NCBI RefSeq assembly: GCF_900103825.1
Contig: NZ_FNIF01000008.1
Location: forward strand, 62,001 to 126,000
DNA: 64,000 bases
Direction: 5' to 3'
From: Paenibacillus sp. yr247
GTDB taxonomy: Bacteria > Bacillota > Bacilli > Paenibacillales > NBRC-103111
This document shows positions 42,128 to 61,559 of the stretch, piece by piece; position 1 is the first letter of the stretch; each line of letters starts with the position of its first letter. Both the position numbers and the translations under genes were made by a program. Below the pieces are notes generated by a model. The model had not been told where the DNA came from. It was given only the letters and a program-made list of their open reading frames with translations, and ran no database searches.

Positions 42128-42371
42128 AAAAAAGCCCCCATCTCTACAATAAGAGACGAGAGCTGTTCATTCCCGCGGTACCACTCTAAGTGTTAAACCA
42201 ACTGGTTTAACCACTCCAACGATAACGGCTTTCGCCGGATCTCCCTACAATATGCTTCGGAAGACCATTTCCCAGGCCCGCTTCGCTCTTGACATCCGTA
42301 CCGGTTCCCACCTATTCCGGCTCGCTGCGACTGTCCGACAAGAACTACTGTCCTGTTCATCAATGTTAATT
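42128..42371 (-). ncRNA. T-box riboswitch leader of argS (Arg specifier)
   Basis: The T-box AGAGTGGTACCGCGG lies at about 42173-42187 on the minus strand, followed by a terminator (AGCTCTCGTCTCT pairing with AGAGATGGGGGCT) and T6. In Stem I AGTAG plus TTCTTG faces CAAGAG plus CGAAG, and the following triplet is CGG (42278-42280), an arginine codon, placed as in the metG leader. Confidence 0.92.
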
Positions 42372-56113: not shown

Positions 56114-57073
56114 TTACAGTCCCAACATAAACTGCAATGTCATATCGTTGAATCCAGGTAAACCTTCATGACCAAAATCCGGGTACAATTCCAACTGTTT
56201 TTTCGACTTGATTTTGTTGTAAGCAGCGAACTGCGTGGAAGGCGGACATACCGTGTCGCTCAGACCTACTGCCAGCAGTACTTCGCCTTGAATTCGCTCC
56301 GCAAGAAACTGAATATCGATATACCCCAGCTTCGTGAAAATTTCTTCTTCCCGCTTATGTTGCGGATCGTGACGGCGGAAAAAGTCTTTCAGTTCTTGGT
56401 AGGCATCCTTCGCCAAATCCATTTCCCAGACGCGCTTATAGTCGCTAAGGAATGGATAAACAGGCGCTAACCGCTTGATGCGAGGCTCCAATGCAGCACA
56501 TGCAATCGTCAAGGCTCCCCCTTGTGAACCACCCATAGCTCCTACTCGCTCGGGATCAACCTCCGGCATGCTCATCGCAATGCCTGCGAGTTGAGCTGTA
56601 TCTAGAAAAATATCTCGGAACAACAATTGATCAGGATGATCATCTAAGCCGCGAACAATATGTCCTCGAAGCGTCGTCCCCTTCATACCACCCACATCTT
56701 CCGATAGACCGCCTTGACCACGGCAATCCATCGAAAAGAATGAATAGCCTAGCGCAGCATACTGAATTTTATCGGACCAGTCGCCGGAATTACCGGAGTA
56801 TCCATGAAATTGTAAAATCGCTGGATGAGACGCTGCTGCAAGTTTTGGTCGGATATATTTCGCATAGATGCGTGCCCCTTTGACGCCTGTGAAATAGAGG
56901 TCGAAACATTCGGCAAAAGGTACTTGAAACTCACTTGGTCGTAGTTTGATTTGAGGATCAATTACCTTCATTTCAGCGATAGCCCGCTCCCAATAAGCAT
57001 CGAAATCTTCTGGACGTGGATTGCGTCCTTCATAAGTGACTAGCTTGTCTAATGGAAAATCAAATAATGGCAT
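56114..57073 (-). CDS. Acetyl-xylan esterase / cephalosporin-C deacetylase family
   Basis: Alpha/beta hydrolase (AXE1 family) of 319 residues that removes acetyl groups from acetylated sugars. The nucleophile serine is in GAMGGSQGGALTIA (GxSxG), with the family RGQGG motif in DCRGQGGLSEDVGG, catalytic Asp in VGLSDTVCPPSTQ and His in DFGHEGLPGF. ATG 57073 has AGAGGATG five bases upstream; a longer frame from 57127 would overlap the upstream gene. It has no signal peptide, so it acts inside the cell. Co-directional with, and 25 bases after, the unknown gene upstream. Confidence 0.9.
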   Translation of the reverse strand: MPLFDFPLDKLVTYEGRNPRPEDFDAYWERAIAEMKVIDPQIKLRPSEFQVPFAECFDLYFTGVKGARIYAKYIRPKLAAASHPAILQFHGYSGNSGDWSDKIQYAALGYSFFSMDCRGQGGLSEDVGGMKGTTLRGHIVRGLDDHPDQLLFRDIFLDTAQLAGIAMSMPEVDPERVGAMGGSQGGALTIACAALEPRIKRLAPVYPFLSDYKRVWEMDLAKDAYQELKDFFRRHDPQHKREEEIFTKLGYIDIQFLAERIQGEVLLAVGLSDTVCPPSTQFAAYNKIKSKKQLELYPDFGHEGLPGFNDMTLQFMLGL

Positions 57074-57098
57074 ATTAACATCCTCTTTTCTATTATTT

Positions 57099-58754
57099 TC
57101 AAGCGACCGTATATGAAGTGAAATCAACAGCTATACCGTTCACTAGTCTGGTGATCTCGCCATCTGGGCCACTACCTAAAACCATCGTATCCTCACTCAA
57201 AGTCGTATATGTAACTTGTAACTCCTCAACATTGGATTGGGTATAGACCGGTTGTTTCTGCTTCATGACATTCGCAAATTGACGTACATCCTCAATCCCT
57301 ATGTTATGCGCTGCGATCTTGTCGATACATTCGACAACAACGGAATTCGTTCTACCTTTGCTTATGACAACTAACCGGTCTGCGTGCACTTCTCTTTGAT
57401 ACGGCTGCTGTACGTGAACAGCAAGGAACACATCCCCACACAAACCGTACAATCCATTAGATTCCTCTATCCAATCTCCTACAGGCAAACAACCAATGAT
57501 CTTTTCAGGCTGATCTTTAGGAATTTGATAGTTTGCAATCAAGGCATTTCGATGAAAAAGTACTTCTGAATATTCGCTTTGATGCCGCAAATCTCCTTCC
57601 GTAAACCTTTGTCCTGGTTGGAAAAAATAAGCATGATTAACACCATCGACGGTATAGAGCGGAAGTGTCACATCCCAACGATGCTGTTCATTGTCAAACT
57701 CAAGTACTCGCTCCCACATACCGCCTATCGCAAAGTTTTCTGTGATAAATACATAACTGTGAAGGATATTCTCCTCACTAATAGCTACAATAGCTTGTTG
57801 GGGGACTCTGCATTTGACTTCCACGGGAACCGAGCGGTGTAAAGCAGCGCTTCGAACTTCTGACGAAGCCTCATACGCTAGAAAACCTGCATACTCCGTT
57901 CGAGGCATCTCATCCGGCAAGGAGAAGTCTCCGAACTGCACATAATCGTGCAGCACATTGAGATCCATCGGCATATCGTGCGGCCAAATCCGCGAATGAG
58001 GGCCCACCCAAGCACCGCCCAAATAATACGTTGATCGAACACTCCAAAGGTAGTCCAGCAACTGAGCTAATGTCGCTTTAATTTGTGTCTCCTTTATAAG
58101 CTCCCAAGCGCACGTGAAAGCTTGCACCCAGTGCCAGAACCATGGCAGCCCCCCGTACTCCGACATCCCGATAGAAGTGACTCGATTCAGCGTGCTGAGT
58201 AAGCATTGGTAGCCATCCTCAAGTAAAGCCTTATCCTCATAAAGCTGTCCGAAAATAAGCTTCGCTGCTGTGTATTTCGCTTCATGATGGTTGTAATGCT
58301 CGGACGGTTTTCGATAAAAGTCGCTTCGATAAATATGCAGAAGTGCTTTGTCAAAAGCGCTGCGTACTGATTCACTCAGAACATCGGAATAGCGCTGATA
58401 AAAATAAACCATCAGACAACCCATTAATTCGACAGGAAGCGTATTTTTAGGAGCCTCTTGTGGAGTAGGCCTTAAATTTAGCGGCCAATGACCATAAGTT
58501 CCACTGTTCTCATTTTGATCCTGGATCTCCAGCAAATGTAACAGAATACCTTCTGCCTTGATCTTAGCCTGTCCGCGATCCCCCTCAAACAGAATGGCAT
58601 CTTCCTGAGAAGCTGCAAATAAGTAAGAAGCATAGTAGAAATTATCCCGGACATCTTGATGAAATAAGAATCCGCTGCTTAAAAGGGGCTGCTTGAATGC
58701 CGCTGCGGCAATTTTGGTTATGATTTCGTTTTGGCGTTGTTGCAATTTCGACAC
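57099..58754 (-). CDS. Unrecognised glycan-related protein, alpha/alpha-toroid-like N-half
   Basis: 551 residues with no signal peptide. I cannot name a family. The N-terminal 300 residues are helix-rich with regularly spaced aromatic and Trp/His motifs (NFYYASYLFAA, YGHWPLNLRP, HYNHHEAKYTAAKL, GGLPWFWHWVQAFTCAWEL), like the (alpha/alpha) toroid of polysaccharide lyases and unsaturated glucuronyl hydrolases. The C-terminal 200 residues look beta-rich. With the acetyl esterase downstream it suggests intracellular processing of an acetylated oligosaccharide (inference). The upstream region has a degenerate LacI/CcpA-like dyad (GAAACGTTTAAC, near 58828). Confidence 0.65.
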   Translation of the reverse strand: MSKLQQRQNEIITKIAAAAFKQPLLSSGFLFHQDVRDNFYYASYLFAASQEDAILFEGDRGQAKIKAEGILLHLLEIQDQNENSGTYGHWPLNLRPTPQEAPKNTLPVELMGCLMVYFYQRYSDVLSESVRSAFDKALLHIYRSDFYRKPSEHYNHHEAKYTAAKLIFGQLYEDKALLEDGYQCLLSTLNRVTSIGMSEYGGLPWFWHWVQAFTCAWELIKETQIKATLAQLLDYLWSVRSTYYLGGAWVGPHSRIWPHDMPMDLNVLHDYVQFGDFSLPDEMPRTEYAGFLAYEASSEVRSAALHRSVPVEVKCRVPQQAIVAISEENILHSYVFITENFAIGGMWERVLEFDNEQHRWDVTLPLYTVDGVNHAYFFQPGQRFTEGDLRHQSEYSEVLFHRNALIANYQIPKDQPEKIIGCLPVGDWIEESNGLYGLCGDVFLAVHVQQPYQREVHADRLVVISKGRTNSVVVECIDKIAAHNIGIEDVRQFANVMKQKQPVYTQSNVEELQVTYTTLSEDTMVLGSGPDGEITRLVNGIAVDFTSYTVA

Positions 58755-58907
58755 ATTTTGTCATCCCCTTGAAAAAAAATGAATAAATTGCAGCTTGCGC
58801 ATTAATGAAGCGCTGTCTTTGTAGATTGAAACGTTTAACATCAGTTTAAATGCAAATAAATGCAGCGTCAATGAGAAGAAAAGTATACATTTTCCATTTT
58901 CTGGTGG

Positions 58908-58936
58908 TTGCAACGACTCGCAATTTCTTATAAAAT
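58908..58936 (+). promoter_or_regulatory. Probable promoter of metNIQ
   Basis: TTGCAA (58908-58913), 17 bases, TAAAAT (58931-58936). No SAM (S-box) riboswitch motif is seen between it and metN; the leader is only about 55 bases. Confidence 0.5.
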
Positions 58937-58997
58937 GATCTATCGTTGGTCAAAATATACAATCACCAATATTTGCATGGAATAGGAGGCGTTCATC

Positions 58998-60023
58998 CTG
59001 ATTCATATCGAAAATTTACAAAAAGTATATGAGGATATACCGGGACATGTACCCGCCATCCAGCAGATCCATTTACAAATCAATCGCGGAGAAATATTCG
59101 GCATCATCGGACATTCCGGTGCAGGGAAGAGCACTTTACTGCGTTGTGTAAATCTTCTGGAACGACCATCCTCAGGAACCATTCAAATTGATGGCGAAGA
59201 AATGACACGATTGGATTCACGCCAGTTGCAAGCAAAACGCCGCAAAATCGGGATGATTTTCCAACATTTCAATCTGCTCTCTTCTTCTACCGTTGCTGAA
59301 AATATTGCCTTTCCTTTGAAATTGGCAGGCATGGAGCAAGCTAAGATCCAAGCGCGCATTCAGGAACTGCTCGATTTGGTCGGCCTGCAGGAACACGCAA
59401 ATAAATATCCAAACCAGCTTTCTGGCGGACAGAAACAGCGAGTCGGTATTGCAAGAGCACTGGCAAACCATCCGGATATTTTACTTTGCGACGAAGCGAC
59501 CTCAGCGCTTGATCCGCAGACAACAAAAGCCATTCTTGCGCTGCTGCTTGATATTAATCAGAAGCTCGGCATTACTATCCTGCTCATCACGCATGAAATG
59601 CAGGTCATTCGTGCTATCTGCGACCGTGTAGCTGTTATGGAAAAAGGCTTGATCGTTGAAACGGGGAAAGTCCTCGACGTATTCCTGAAGCCTCAGCATC
59701 CGGTGACGAAAGATTTCGTGGGACAAGTTTCTGACTTCTCAACAAGCTCAGGAAATGATCAGGGCATAATACAGAGTGATAGACACGGAACATTGATCCG
59801 CATTACATATATCGGTGAGCAAACATACGAACCGATTTTGTTCGAAACCGTCAAGTCGACGAATGTGTCTTTTGCAATTCTGCAGGGCACCATTTCTTCC
59901 ATGAAAAGCGTTCCTTACGGTCAATTGGTCGTCGAATTAACAGGCGGACATCAAGAGGAAATCGCTTCTGTTATTGCCAAACTTGAGCAAGAAGGGATCG
60001 ACGTGGAGGTGCTCACTCCATGA
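58998..60023 (+). CDS. metN: Methionine ABC importer ATP-binding protein, non-AUG start
   Basis: ATPase of the MetNIQ importer. Walker A GHSGAGKSTLLR lies at about residues 38-49, the signature is LSGGQKQR, Walker B LLCDEATSALD, switch His in ITHEMQV, and the C-terminal regulatory NIL domain starts near residue 265. The first in-frame ATG is at 59202, after Walker A, so translation must begin earlier. After the in-frame TAG at 58983 the only codons before the conserved IHIENLQKVY are GAG GCG TTC ATC CTG. AGGAGG lies eight bases before CTG 58998. Starting there gives 341 residues, the usual MetN length. Confidence 0.92.
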   Translation: MIHIENLQKVYEDIPGHVPAIQQIHLQINRGEIFGIIGHSGAGKSTLLRCVNLLERPSSGTIQIDGEEMTRLDSRQLQAKRRKIGMIFQHFNLLSSSTVAENIAFPLKLAGMEQAKIQARIQELLDLVGLQEHANKYPNQLSGGQKQRVGIARALANHPDILLCDEATSALDPQTTKAILALLLDINQKLGITILLITHEMQVIRAICDRVAVMEKGLIVETGKVLDVFLKPQHPVTKDFVGQVSDFSTSSGNDQGIIQSDRHGTLIRITYIGEQTYEPILFETVKSTNVSFAILQGTISSMKSVPYGQLVVELTGGHQEEIASVIAKLEQEGIDVEVLTP

Positions 60024-60682
60024 ATATGACCTGGGACATTAACTGGTCCGAAATTGCCAAAGCGACAGGCGATACGCTTGTGATGCTGGGGTGGTCGCTC
60101 CTTTTCACCGTCATCATCGGCATGGCATTAGGCATCATTTTATTTCTTACCTCCAAAGGGCAGCTGCTGCAAAATCTGCCGCTATACGGTGTTCTTTCGC
60201 TGGTCGTAAACATCCTGCGTTCCGTGCCTTTCGTGATTTTAATGATCTCGGTTTTCCCGATCACGAAGGTTCTCGTACATACCACCATCGGGGTTAAAGG
60301 CGCAATCCCGCCTCTGGTTATCGCTGCCGCTCCGTTTCTCGCGCGACTGGTGGAATCCGCGCTGCGCGAGATCGAGAGCGGCGTTATTGAAGCCGCTCAG
60401 TCGATGGGCGCAACGCCGTGGCAAATCGTCTGGCGCGTCCTTCTGCCAGAAGCGCGCCCGGGTTTGATCTCAGCGGTCACAGTTACGGCTGTTGCCCTGC
60501 TCTCCTACTCCGCCATGTCAGGCGTAGTTGGCGGCGGCGGGCTCGGCGATCTATCGCTCCGATACGGCTACATGCGGTTCCGTACCGATATCATGATCGT
60601 GACGGTCGTCATTCTCGTTCTTTTCGTTCAGCTCCTGCAAATGCTGGGAGATCGTTTAGTCACCAAATACAACCGTAAATAA
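60020..60682 (+). CDS. metI: Methionine ABC importer permease
   Basis: Membrane subunit of 220 residues with five helices. The EAA loop contacting MetN is ESGVIEAAQSMGATPWQIVWR, shown here as ESGVIEAAQSMG and ATPWQIVWR, and the region SAMSGVVGGGGLGDL is typical of MetI. It overlaps metN by four bases (ATGA). Confidence 0.94.
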   Translation: MNMTWDINWSEIAKATGDTLVMLGWSLLFTVIIGMALGIILFLTSKGQLLQNLPLYGVLSLVVNILRSVPFVILMISVFPITKVLVHTTIGVKGAIPPLVIAAAPFLARLVESALREIESGVIEAAQSMGATPWQIVWRVLLPEARPGLISAVTVTAVALLSYSAMSGVVGGGGLGDLSLRYGYMRFRTDIMIVTVVILVLFVQLLQMLGDRLVTKYNRK

Positions 60683-60710: not shown

Positions 60711-61559
60711 ATGAAAAAACTTAATGTATCGTTAGTCGCCCTATTCCTTGTGCTTGCGCTAGCAGCATGCGGACAGAAAGCAACTGAAAAACCTGCAAGT
60801 TCAGCACCTGCTGCTTCTGCCACATCTGGGGCGGTAAAAGAAGTTACACTGAAAGTCGGAGCCTCTTCGGTTCCTCATGCCGAAATTTTGAATGGCATTA
60901 AAGCGAAATTGAAAACACAAGGTGTTAATTTAGAAGTGATCGAGTTTAATGACTATGTTCAGCCGAATGTGCAAGTGTTCGAAAAGCAATTGGACGCTAA
61001 TTTCTTCCAACACCAGCCTTACCTAGATCAATACAACGCAGATAAAAAGCAAAACCTTGTAAAAGTCGTTGGTGTTCACATCGAACCGTTCGGCGCATAC
61101 TCGCAAAAAGTGAAATCCGCTGCTGAATTGAAAGACGGCGCATCCGTAGCTATTCCTAACGATCCTTCCAATGCTGGACGTGCGCTTGCTCTGTTAGAGA
61201 AAAACGGTCTGCTTAAGCTAAAAGACGGCGTTGGCATCAAGGGGACTGTTCAAGATATCATAGAGAATAAAAAGAAGCTGCAAATCAAAGAATTAGACCC
61301 AGCTATGCTTCCGCGTACAATCGGTGAATTCGATCTAGCCCTGATCAATACGAACTACGCCTTGCAAGCGAATTTAATGCCGACGAAAGACGCTCTGTTC
61401 ATCGAGGACAAAAACTCGCCTTACGTGAACATCCTCGTTTCCCGTCCGGACAACAAGGATTCCGAAGCGATGCAAAAGCTAGCTAAGGAACTGAATTCCC
61501 CTGAAACGAAAAAATTCATCGAAGAAAAATACAAAGGCGCGATCGTGCCTGCGTTCTAA
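60711..61559 (+). CDS. metQ: Methionine-binding lipoprotein
   Basis: NlpA/MetQ family receptor of 282 residues. The signal peptide has lipobox LALAAC, followed by a Ser/Ala-rich spacer. Family motifs: VGASSVPHAEILNGIK, FNDYVQPN, DANFFQHQPYLDQYN, and ALINTNYALQANL. GGAGG precedes the ATG. Terminator follows; last gene of metNIQ. Confidence 0.94.
   Translation: MKKLNVSLVALFLVLALAACGQKATEKPASSAPAASATSGAVKEVTLKVGASSVPHAEILNGIKAKLKTQGVNLEVIEFNDYVQPNVQVFEKQLDANFFQHQPYLDQYNADKKQNLVKVVGVHIEPFGAYSQKVKSAAELKDGASVAIPNDPSNAGRALALLEKNGLLKLKDGVGIKGTVQDIIENKKKLQIKELDPAMLPRTIGEFDLALINTNYALQANLMPTKDALFIEDKNSPYVNILVSRPDNKDSEAMQKLAKELNSPETKKFIEEKYKGAIVPAF

Follow-up and report, generated by a model that had tools for sequence, protein, structure and literature searches.

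Background

Translation of the metN gene of Paenibacillus sp. yr247 raises a simple question: at which codon does it begin? The gene lies in the window, by which we mean the whole stretch of DNA that was analysed (64,000 nucleotides; contig NZ_FNIF01000008.1). The original prediction, made from the letters alone, placed the start at CTG 58998 or another non-AUG codon; the CTG lies eight bases behind AGGAGG and shortly after an in-frame TAG at 58983-58985, gives 341 residues and is followed by no ATG, GTG or TTG before 59202. These positions, the spacing and the frame were all confirmed. The features of the locus are given below.

58908..58936, + strand: predicted sigma-A promoter, TTGCAA-N17-TAAAAT (motif search and genus conservation)
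58983..58985, + strand: in-frame stop TAG, overlapping the Shine-Dalgarno (SD) sequence and closing the frame upstream (sequence reading)
58984..58989, + strand: SD sequence AGGAGG, 8 nt before the CTG (sequence reading)
58998..59000, + strand: CTG start codon of metN (invariant in 56/56 orthologs; 0 changes on the tree)
58998..60023, + strand: metN, ABC importer ATPase of 341 aa with a NIL domain (TIGR02314, ABC_tran and NIL matches)
60003..60010, + strand: SD sequence of metI (GTGGAGGT), within the 3' end of metN (GTG and GAG codons invariant in the genus)
60020..60682, + strand: metI, permease; its start and the stop of metN share bases (ATGA at 60020)
60711..61559, + strand: metQ, substrate-binding lipoprotein; begins with an ordinary ATG, GGAGGT lying 9 nt before it

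The metN frame terminates at TGA 60021-60023. Between the TAG and the CTG stand the codons GAG GCG TTC ATC, with no in-frame ATG, GTG or TTG among them, and one ATG in the same frame (58977) lies 5' of the TAG. Downstream of the CTG, the first ATG, GTG or TTG is codon 69 (59202); Walker A starts earlier, at codon 38, and would be lost by initiation there, as had been predicted.

Results

Identity of the importer

The best NCBIfam match of MetN was TIGR02314 at 369.1 bits, below the equivalog cut-off of 499.7 bits, so that this score does not certify methionine as the substrate. ABC_tran (PF00005, 138 bits) and C-terminal NIL (PF09383, 68.4 bits) domains were found, and the genes for the MetI permease and the MetQ lipoprotein come next, as expected for a methionine importer. 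By family and operon the importer appears to be of the methionine type, with methionine transport as a putative function. A plasmid search returned no record covering 80% of the query, the matches being partial and of 60-90% identity. Elsewhere in the window, a T-box leader was found at 42149-42369 on the minus strand (124.2 bits).

Conservation of the CTG

The genus set comprised 30 genomes, including that of the window (G000). A metN ortholog was found in 21 of them, with 75-90% identity besides the window's own; the remaining nine gave no match at E 1e-95. Comparison of metN starts in close relatives had been proposed as a check, and CTG was found at the aligned start position in 21/21 genus orthologs. 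In a pattern scan of 104 family genomes, SD-CTGATTCATAT preceded metN in 20 of the 21 genus loci, with CTGATCCAG in G009. Beyond the genus, CTG stands at the start of another 35 loci from the order, giving 56/56 in one MetN subfamily that spans three family-level groups (f1, f5 and f10). Because the proteins of loci L033 and L035 are identical to those of L157 and L202, these 56 loci represent about 54 distinct genomes.

One listing of genomes of the order gave a metN match in 330/392. The 78 further order loci (18 returned by searches and 60 fetched) were drawn from the upper part of match listings and start with CTG (32), TTG (22), ATG (21), GTG (2) or ATC (1); this sample is biased towards the query and yields no order-wide share of CTG. 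The single ATC, which would be another type of rare start, belongs to a metN with an S-box (L179, genome G067), where a GTG at -9 is an alternative. A named collection gave at least 591 loci, and the best 80 among them (L033-L112) start with GTG (47), ATG (16), TTG (14) or CTG (3), the last in Paenibacillus prosopidis, P. lycopersici and P. pinihumi. Of these best 80 loci, 64 begin at GTG, TTG or CTG, which is no more than a hint of recurrent weak starts in metN, since 48 of these best matches are from Pseudomonadota.

Invariance of the start codon

A codon alignment of the 56 CTG genes contains 121 residue-invariant columns (Met and Trp excluded), one of which is also invariant as a codon: the start CTG. 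It shows 0 parsimony changes on the tree, against 12-25 (mean 19) at the 20 other invariant Leu columns and a mean of 14.4 (minimum 2) over all 120 other invariant columns. When only changes at the first base (C or T) are counted, the other Leu columns still show 1-13 changes; the summed branch length of the clade is 13.6 changes per site. Within the genus, 4 of 204 columns are codon-invariant, namely CTG 1, ATC 84, GTG 340 and GAG 341, and the last two form the SD sequence of metI.

Codon 2 varies among the 56 loci (ATT 41, ATC 11, ATA 4) while the CTG is fixed, which argues that the CTG is read as a start. In alignments, it coincides with the ATG, TTG or GTG start of other MetN orthologs, and a G-rich SD core lies 7-8 nt 5' of it in 51/56 loci. 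An upstream in-frame ATG, GTG or TTG is present in 22/56 loci and missing in 34/56; in L196 a TAA stands immediately 5' of the CTG. Conservation thus strongly supports the predicted metN start. The infC gene, an AUU-start gene, served as a control: tblastn gave an ATT start in 30/30 genus genomes, which validates the way in which starts were read.

Promoter, leader and intergenic region

The promoter motif search of the metN region gave two sites against 1.2 expected in shuffled sequences, which is weak by itself. Across the 21 genus loci, the predicted promoter is conserved at its TTG and through most of the TTATAAAAT stretch. A leader beginning at this promoter would be about 55 nt long and hence too short for an S-box. 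Several f10 loci have, by eye, a TTGACA-like promoter close before the SD sequence. No conserved upstream ORF was found before metN over 56 CTG loci and 55 others.

The metN intergenic region also holds a TTGAAACGTTTAA element with a palindromic core, at 58826-58838 of the window and in the same place across the genus, possibly an operator of the divergent genes. On the minus strand, 57099-58754 encodes a 551-aa protein with no Pfam match listed even at E 10 and none in NCBIfam; its gene adjoins that of an acetyl xylan esterase (AXE1; 56114-57127, minus strand).

Relation to the SAM riboswitch

One hundred metN loci were scanned for riboswitches at Rfam gathering scores. An S-box (RF00162) precedes metN in 0/44 CTG loci vs 53/56 loci with other starts (Fisher 3e-25), a value that overstates the association, since the start changes between CTG and other codons on one branch only. 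CTG and S-box absence change together on essentially that one branch and are therefore not independent cases. Six additional CTG loci were also free of S-boxes, making 0/50 (six CTG loci of the genus lay outside the scan), and no other Rfam family was reported at gathering score in the first 100 loci. The 60 fetched loci reach only some 400 bases upstream of metN; those S-boxes that they contain sit within that span, and farther ones would be missed. At gathering score the metN leader of the window has no S-box, which places this gene outside the S-box regulon. Three loci with other starts also lack an S-box (L143 and L171, ATG; L207, TTG).

Fourteen distant metN homologues (46-53% identity) have no S-box and start with ATG (8), TTG (5) or GTG (1), so the absence of the riboswitch does not force a CTG start. 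Seven of them come from genomes that also have a closer ortholog, and seven are the sole match of their genome at E 1e-95. Counted per genome, there are two S-boxes in 10/10 S-box-metN genomes viewed and exactly one in 17/20 CTG genomes; two occur in 10/30 genomes of the window's genus. The single S-box of G000 lies at C36:321629-321758, and the ORFs downstream resemble, on reading, metA and a cystathionine gamma-synthase-type gene.

Phylogeny of MetN

In a quick tree of 118 MetN proteins the CTG rows fell on one side of one branch (support 19), and a careful tree built from 59 selected rows placed them likewise (support 86/66, not starred). A topology uniting the genus with the remaining MetN of its family (19 rows, 17 with S-box) was rejected (p-AU 0.016); the 19-row grouping was named after the first tree had been seen. 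Given this rejection, the CTG form looks like an old MetN subfamily and not a recent change in the genus. Its history would involve either duplication with loss, or transfer, and the position of the root decides between loss of an S-box and its absence from the beginning.

CTG use and the initiation machinery

In 464 kb of the window's own genome (362 ORFs), SD-preceded CTG was found in 17/1500 cases (0.011) vs a background of 0.015, so there is no enrichment; the corresponding values were 142/2076 (0.068) for ATG, 0.023 for GTG and 0.021 for TTG, and single non-start codons reached 0.029. The SD rule used was crude, with an SD-preceded canonical start in only 173/362 ORFs, and as GTG and TTG lie within the noise of other codons, the power of the test for CTG is low. 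It argues against CTG starts being common in this genome. Five other ORFs in the 464 kb have an SD-preceded CTG without an SD-preceded canonical start, and a handful of further CTG starts is possible.

A relaxed initiator tRNA was rejected as the cause, the anticodon stem being normal in 30/30 genomes by an exact 17-base pattern, which extra variant copies could escape; ARAGORN called tRNA-Met genes at 5/5 loci inspected. The median SD strength was -13.6 kcal/mol at CTG loci vs -12.75 kcal/mol at the others (p 0.02; against ATG loci, p 0.35), a difference so slight that it lends little support to compensation by the SD sequence. RNA structure at the start gave no clear signal (median MFE -9.6 for CTG, -8.6 for TTG and -8.2 for ATG loci).

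A second, diverged IF3-like gene (G000 C36:737184-737657, minus strand; about 84-114 bits to TIGR00168) is present in 30/30 genus genomes. It was above cut-off in 28/30 other genomes of the order, with none in G107 and only sub-cut-off fragments in G070. As a specific cause of the CTG it was rejected, because it occurs in S-box and CTG genomes alike.

Discussion

A proposed weak start under selection

We propose that the ordinary initiator fMet-tRNA reads the CUG, guided to it by the strong SD sequence at 7-8 nt, so that MetN would begin fMet-Ile-His-Ile. The weak CUG would fix a low rate of MetN synthesis and be maintained by purifying selection, and the ATGA overlap would probably carry the low rate on to MetI. 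In the CTG subfamily, transcription of the operon appears to come from a promoter that gives a short leader and no SAM riboswitch. From the sequence comparisons, initiation almost certainly takes place at the CUG. On balance it is the likelier case that this start yields little protein and that selection acts on the low yield, and the reading as a whole, a weak CUG start under purifying selection that sets a low MetN output, seems to us quite probable.

Published work bears on the strength of such a start. CUG initiation complexes are described as less stable than those on AUG, GUG and UUG (PMC11497404), and only 2 of 61,358 ancestral AUG starts switched to CUG (PMC5622118). Reporters in Listeria showed reduced translation from non-canonical starts, ATA and ATT being those assayed, and not CTG (PMC13068326). 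A single base change would turn the CUG into ATG, GTG or TTG; its persistence in more than 50 genomes indicates that a weak start can be a selected trait.

The original prediction also held that a rare start may lower MetN relative to MetI and MetQ. This is plausible for MetQ, which has its own ATG and GGAGGT. For MetI it is doubtful, because its start overlaps the metN stop and weak initiation on metN should reduce MetI as well, bar the effect of its own SD sequence.

Alternative explanations

The CUG might instead be a regulated element like the AUU of infC, its use tracking the IF3 level or initiation fidelity and so tuning MetN. The rare start is conserved in genomes whose infC has ATT in 30/30 cases, and the lesser stability of CUG complexes (PMC11497404) would suit such control. 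We nevertheless think this unlikely, since the second IF3-like gene, found in S-box and CTG genomes alike and missing from CTG genome G107 or fragmentary in CTG genome G070, has no specific link to CTG.

The CUG start could conceivably take over the function of the SAM riboswitch, with the ribosome itself acting as the SAM sensor. Initiation fidelity would be supported by SAM-dependent methylation of 16S rRNA (RsmA/KsgA, RsmB, RsmD). When SAM runs short, start codons would be chosen less strictly, metN would be initiated more often at its CUG and more methionine would be imported, a response of the right sign. The link between rRNA methylation and fidelity is described for a mutant initiator tRNA, not for CUG (PMC7949028), and we regard a sensor of this kind as very improbable.

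Less probable again is a start at another codon, be it ATT 59001, ATC 58995 or, with readthrough of the TAG, one farther upstream. Translation table 11 allows ATT and ATC as starts, and ATG 58977 shares the frame 5' of the TAG; however, codon 2 (ATT, ATC or ATA) and, widely, codon -1 vary and the CTG never does, and the upstream ATG is lost in genus members such as L011, L014 and L018. There is still less to recommend re-initiation at the CTG after an upstream ORF ending at an overlapping UGA (CUGA). The CTGA overlap occurs in 56/56 CTG loci, but any Ile codon in second position creates it; ORFs of at least 5 codons that lie upstream and end there are found in 18/56 CTG loci vs 18/55 others, and 17/21 genus members, G000 included, have no such ORF with an ATG, GTG or TTG start. 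A sequencing or assembly error turning ATG, GTG or TTG into CTG, the main alternative offered with the original prediction, would need a change of the first base alone and is refuted by the identical CTG in 56/56 loci of many separate assemblies.

Comparison with known systems

In titles and abstract openings of open-licence papers, no CTG or CUG start was reported for metN. Hecht et al. (2017) reportedly measured all start codons. In one ribosome-profiling atlas, CTG sites formed the negative training set (PMC12752654). Bacterial annotation may easily treat CUG starts as noise, and the metN CUG is a natural system for asking what makes CUG initiation work and if it is regulated.

A close likeness is infC, which encodes IF3 and is autoregulated. 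In both genes a strong SD sequence precedes a conserved non-canonical start, and in the cross-species conservation of that start metN resembles the rare-start class of the infC type. In contrast to infC (ATT in 30/30 genus genomes), metN has CUG, its product is not a translation factor, and no feedback on initiation is obvious. In the core genome of Listeria monocytogenes, six genes keep a non-canonical start, with infC ATT and rnhC ATC confirmed (PMC13068326); the starts described there are fixed within one species, whereas the metN CTG extends across three family-level groups.

Another close comparison lies within the order itself. Its S-box (RF00162) metN operons encode an orthologous MetN with the identical start position; they combine the S-box with ATG, TTG or GTG (one ATC), whereas the CTG subfamily has no S-box (0/50 scanned loci) and an apparently short leader. 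One order thus holds two designs for the same importer gene: a SAM riboswitch with another start, or CUG without the riboswitch.
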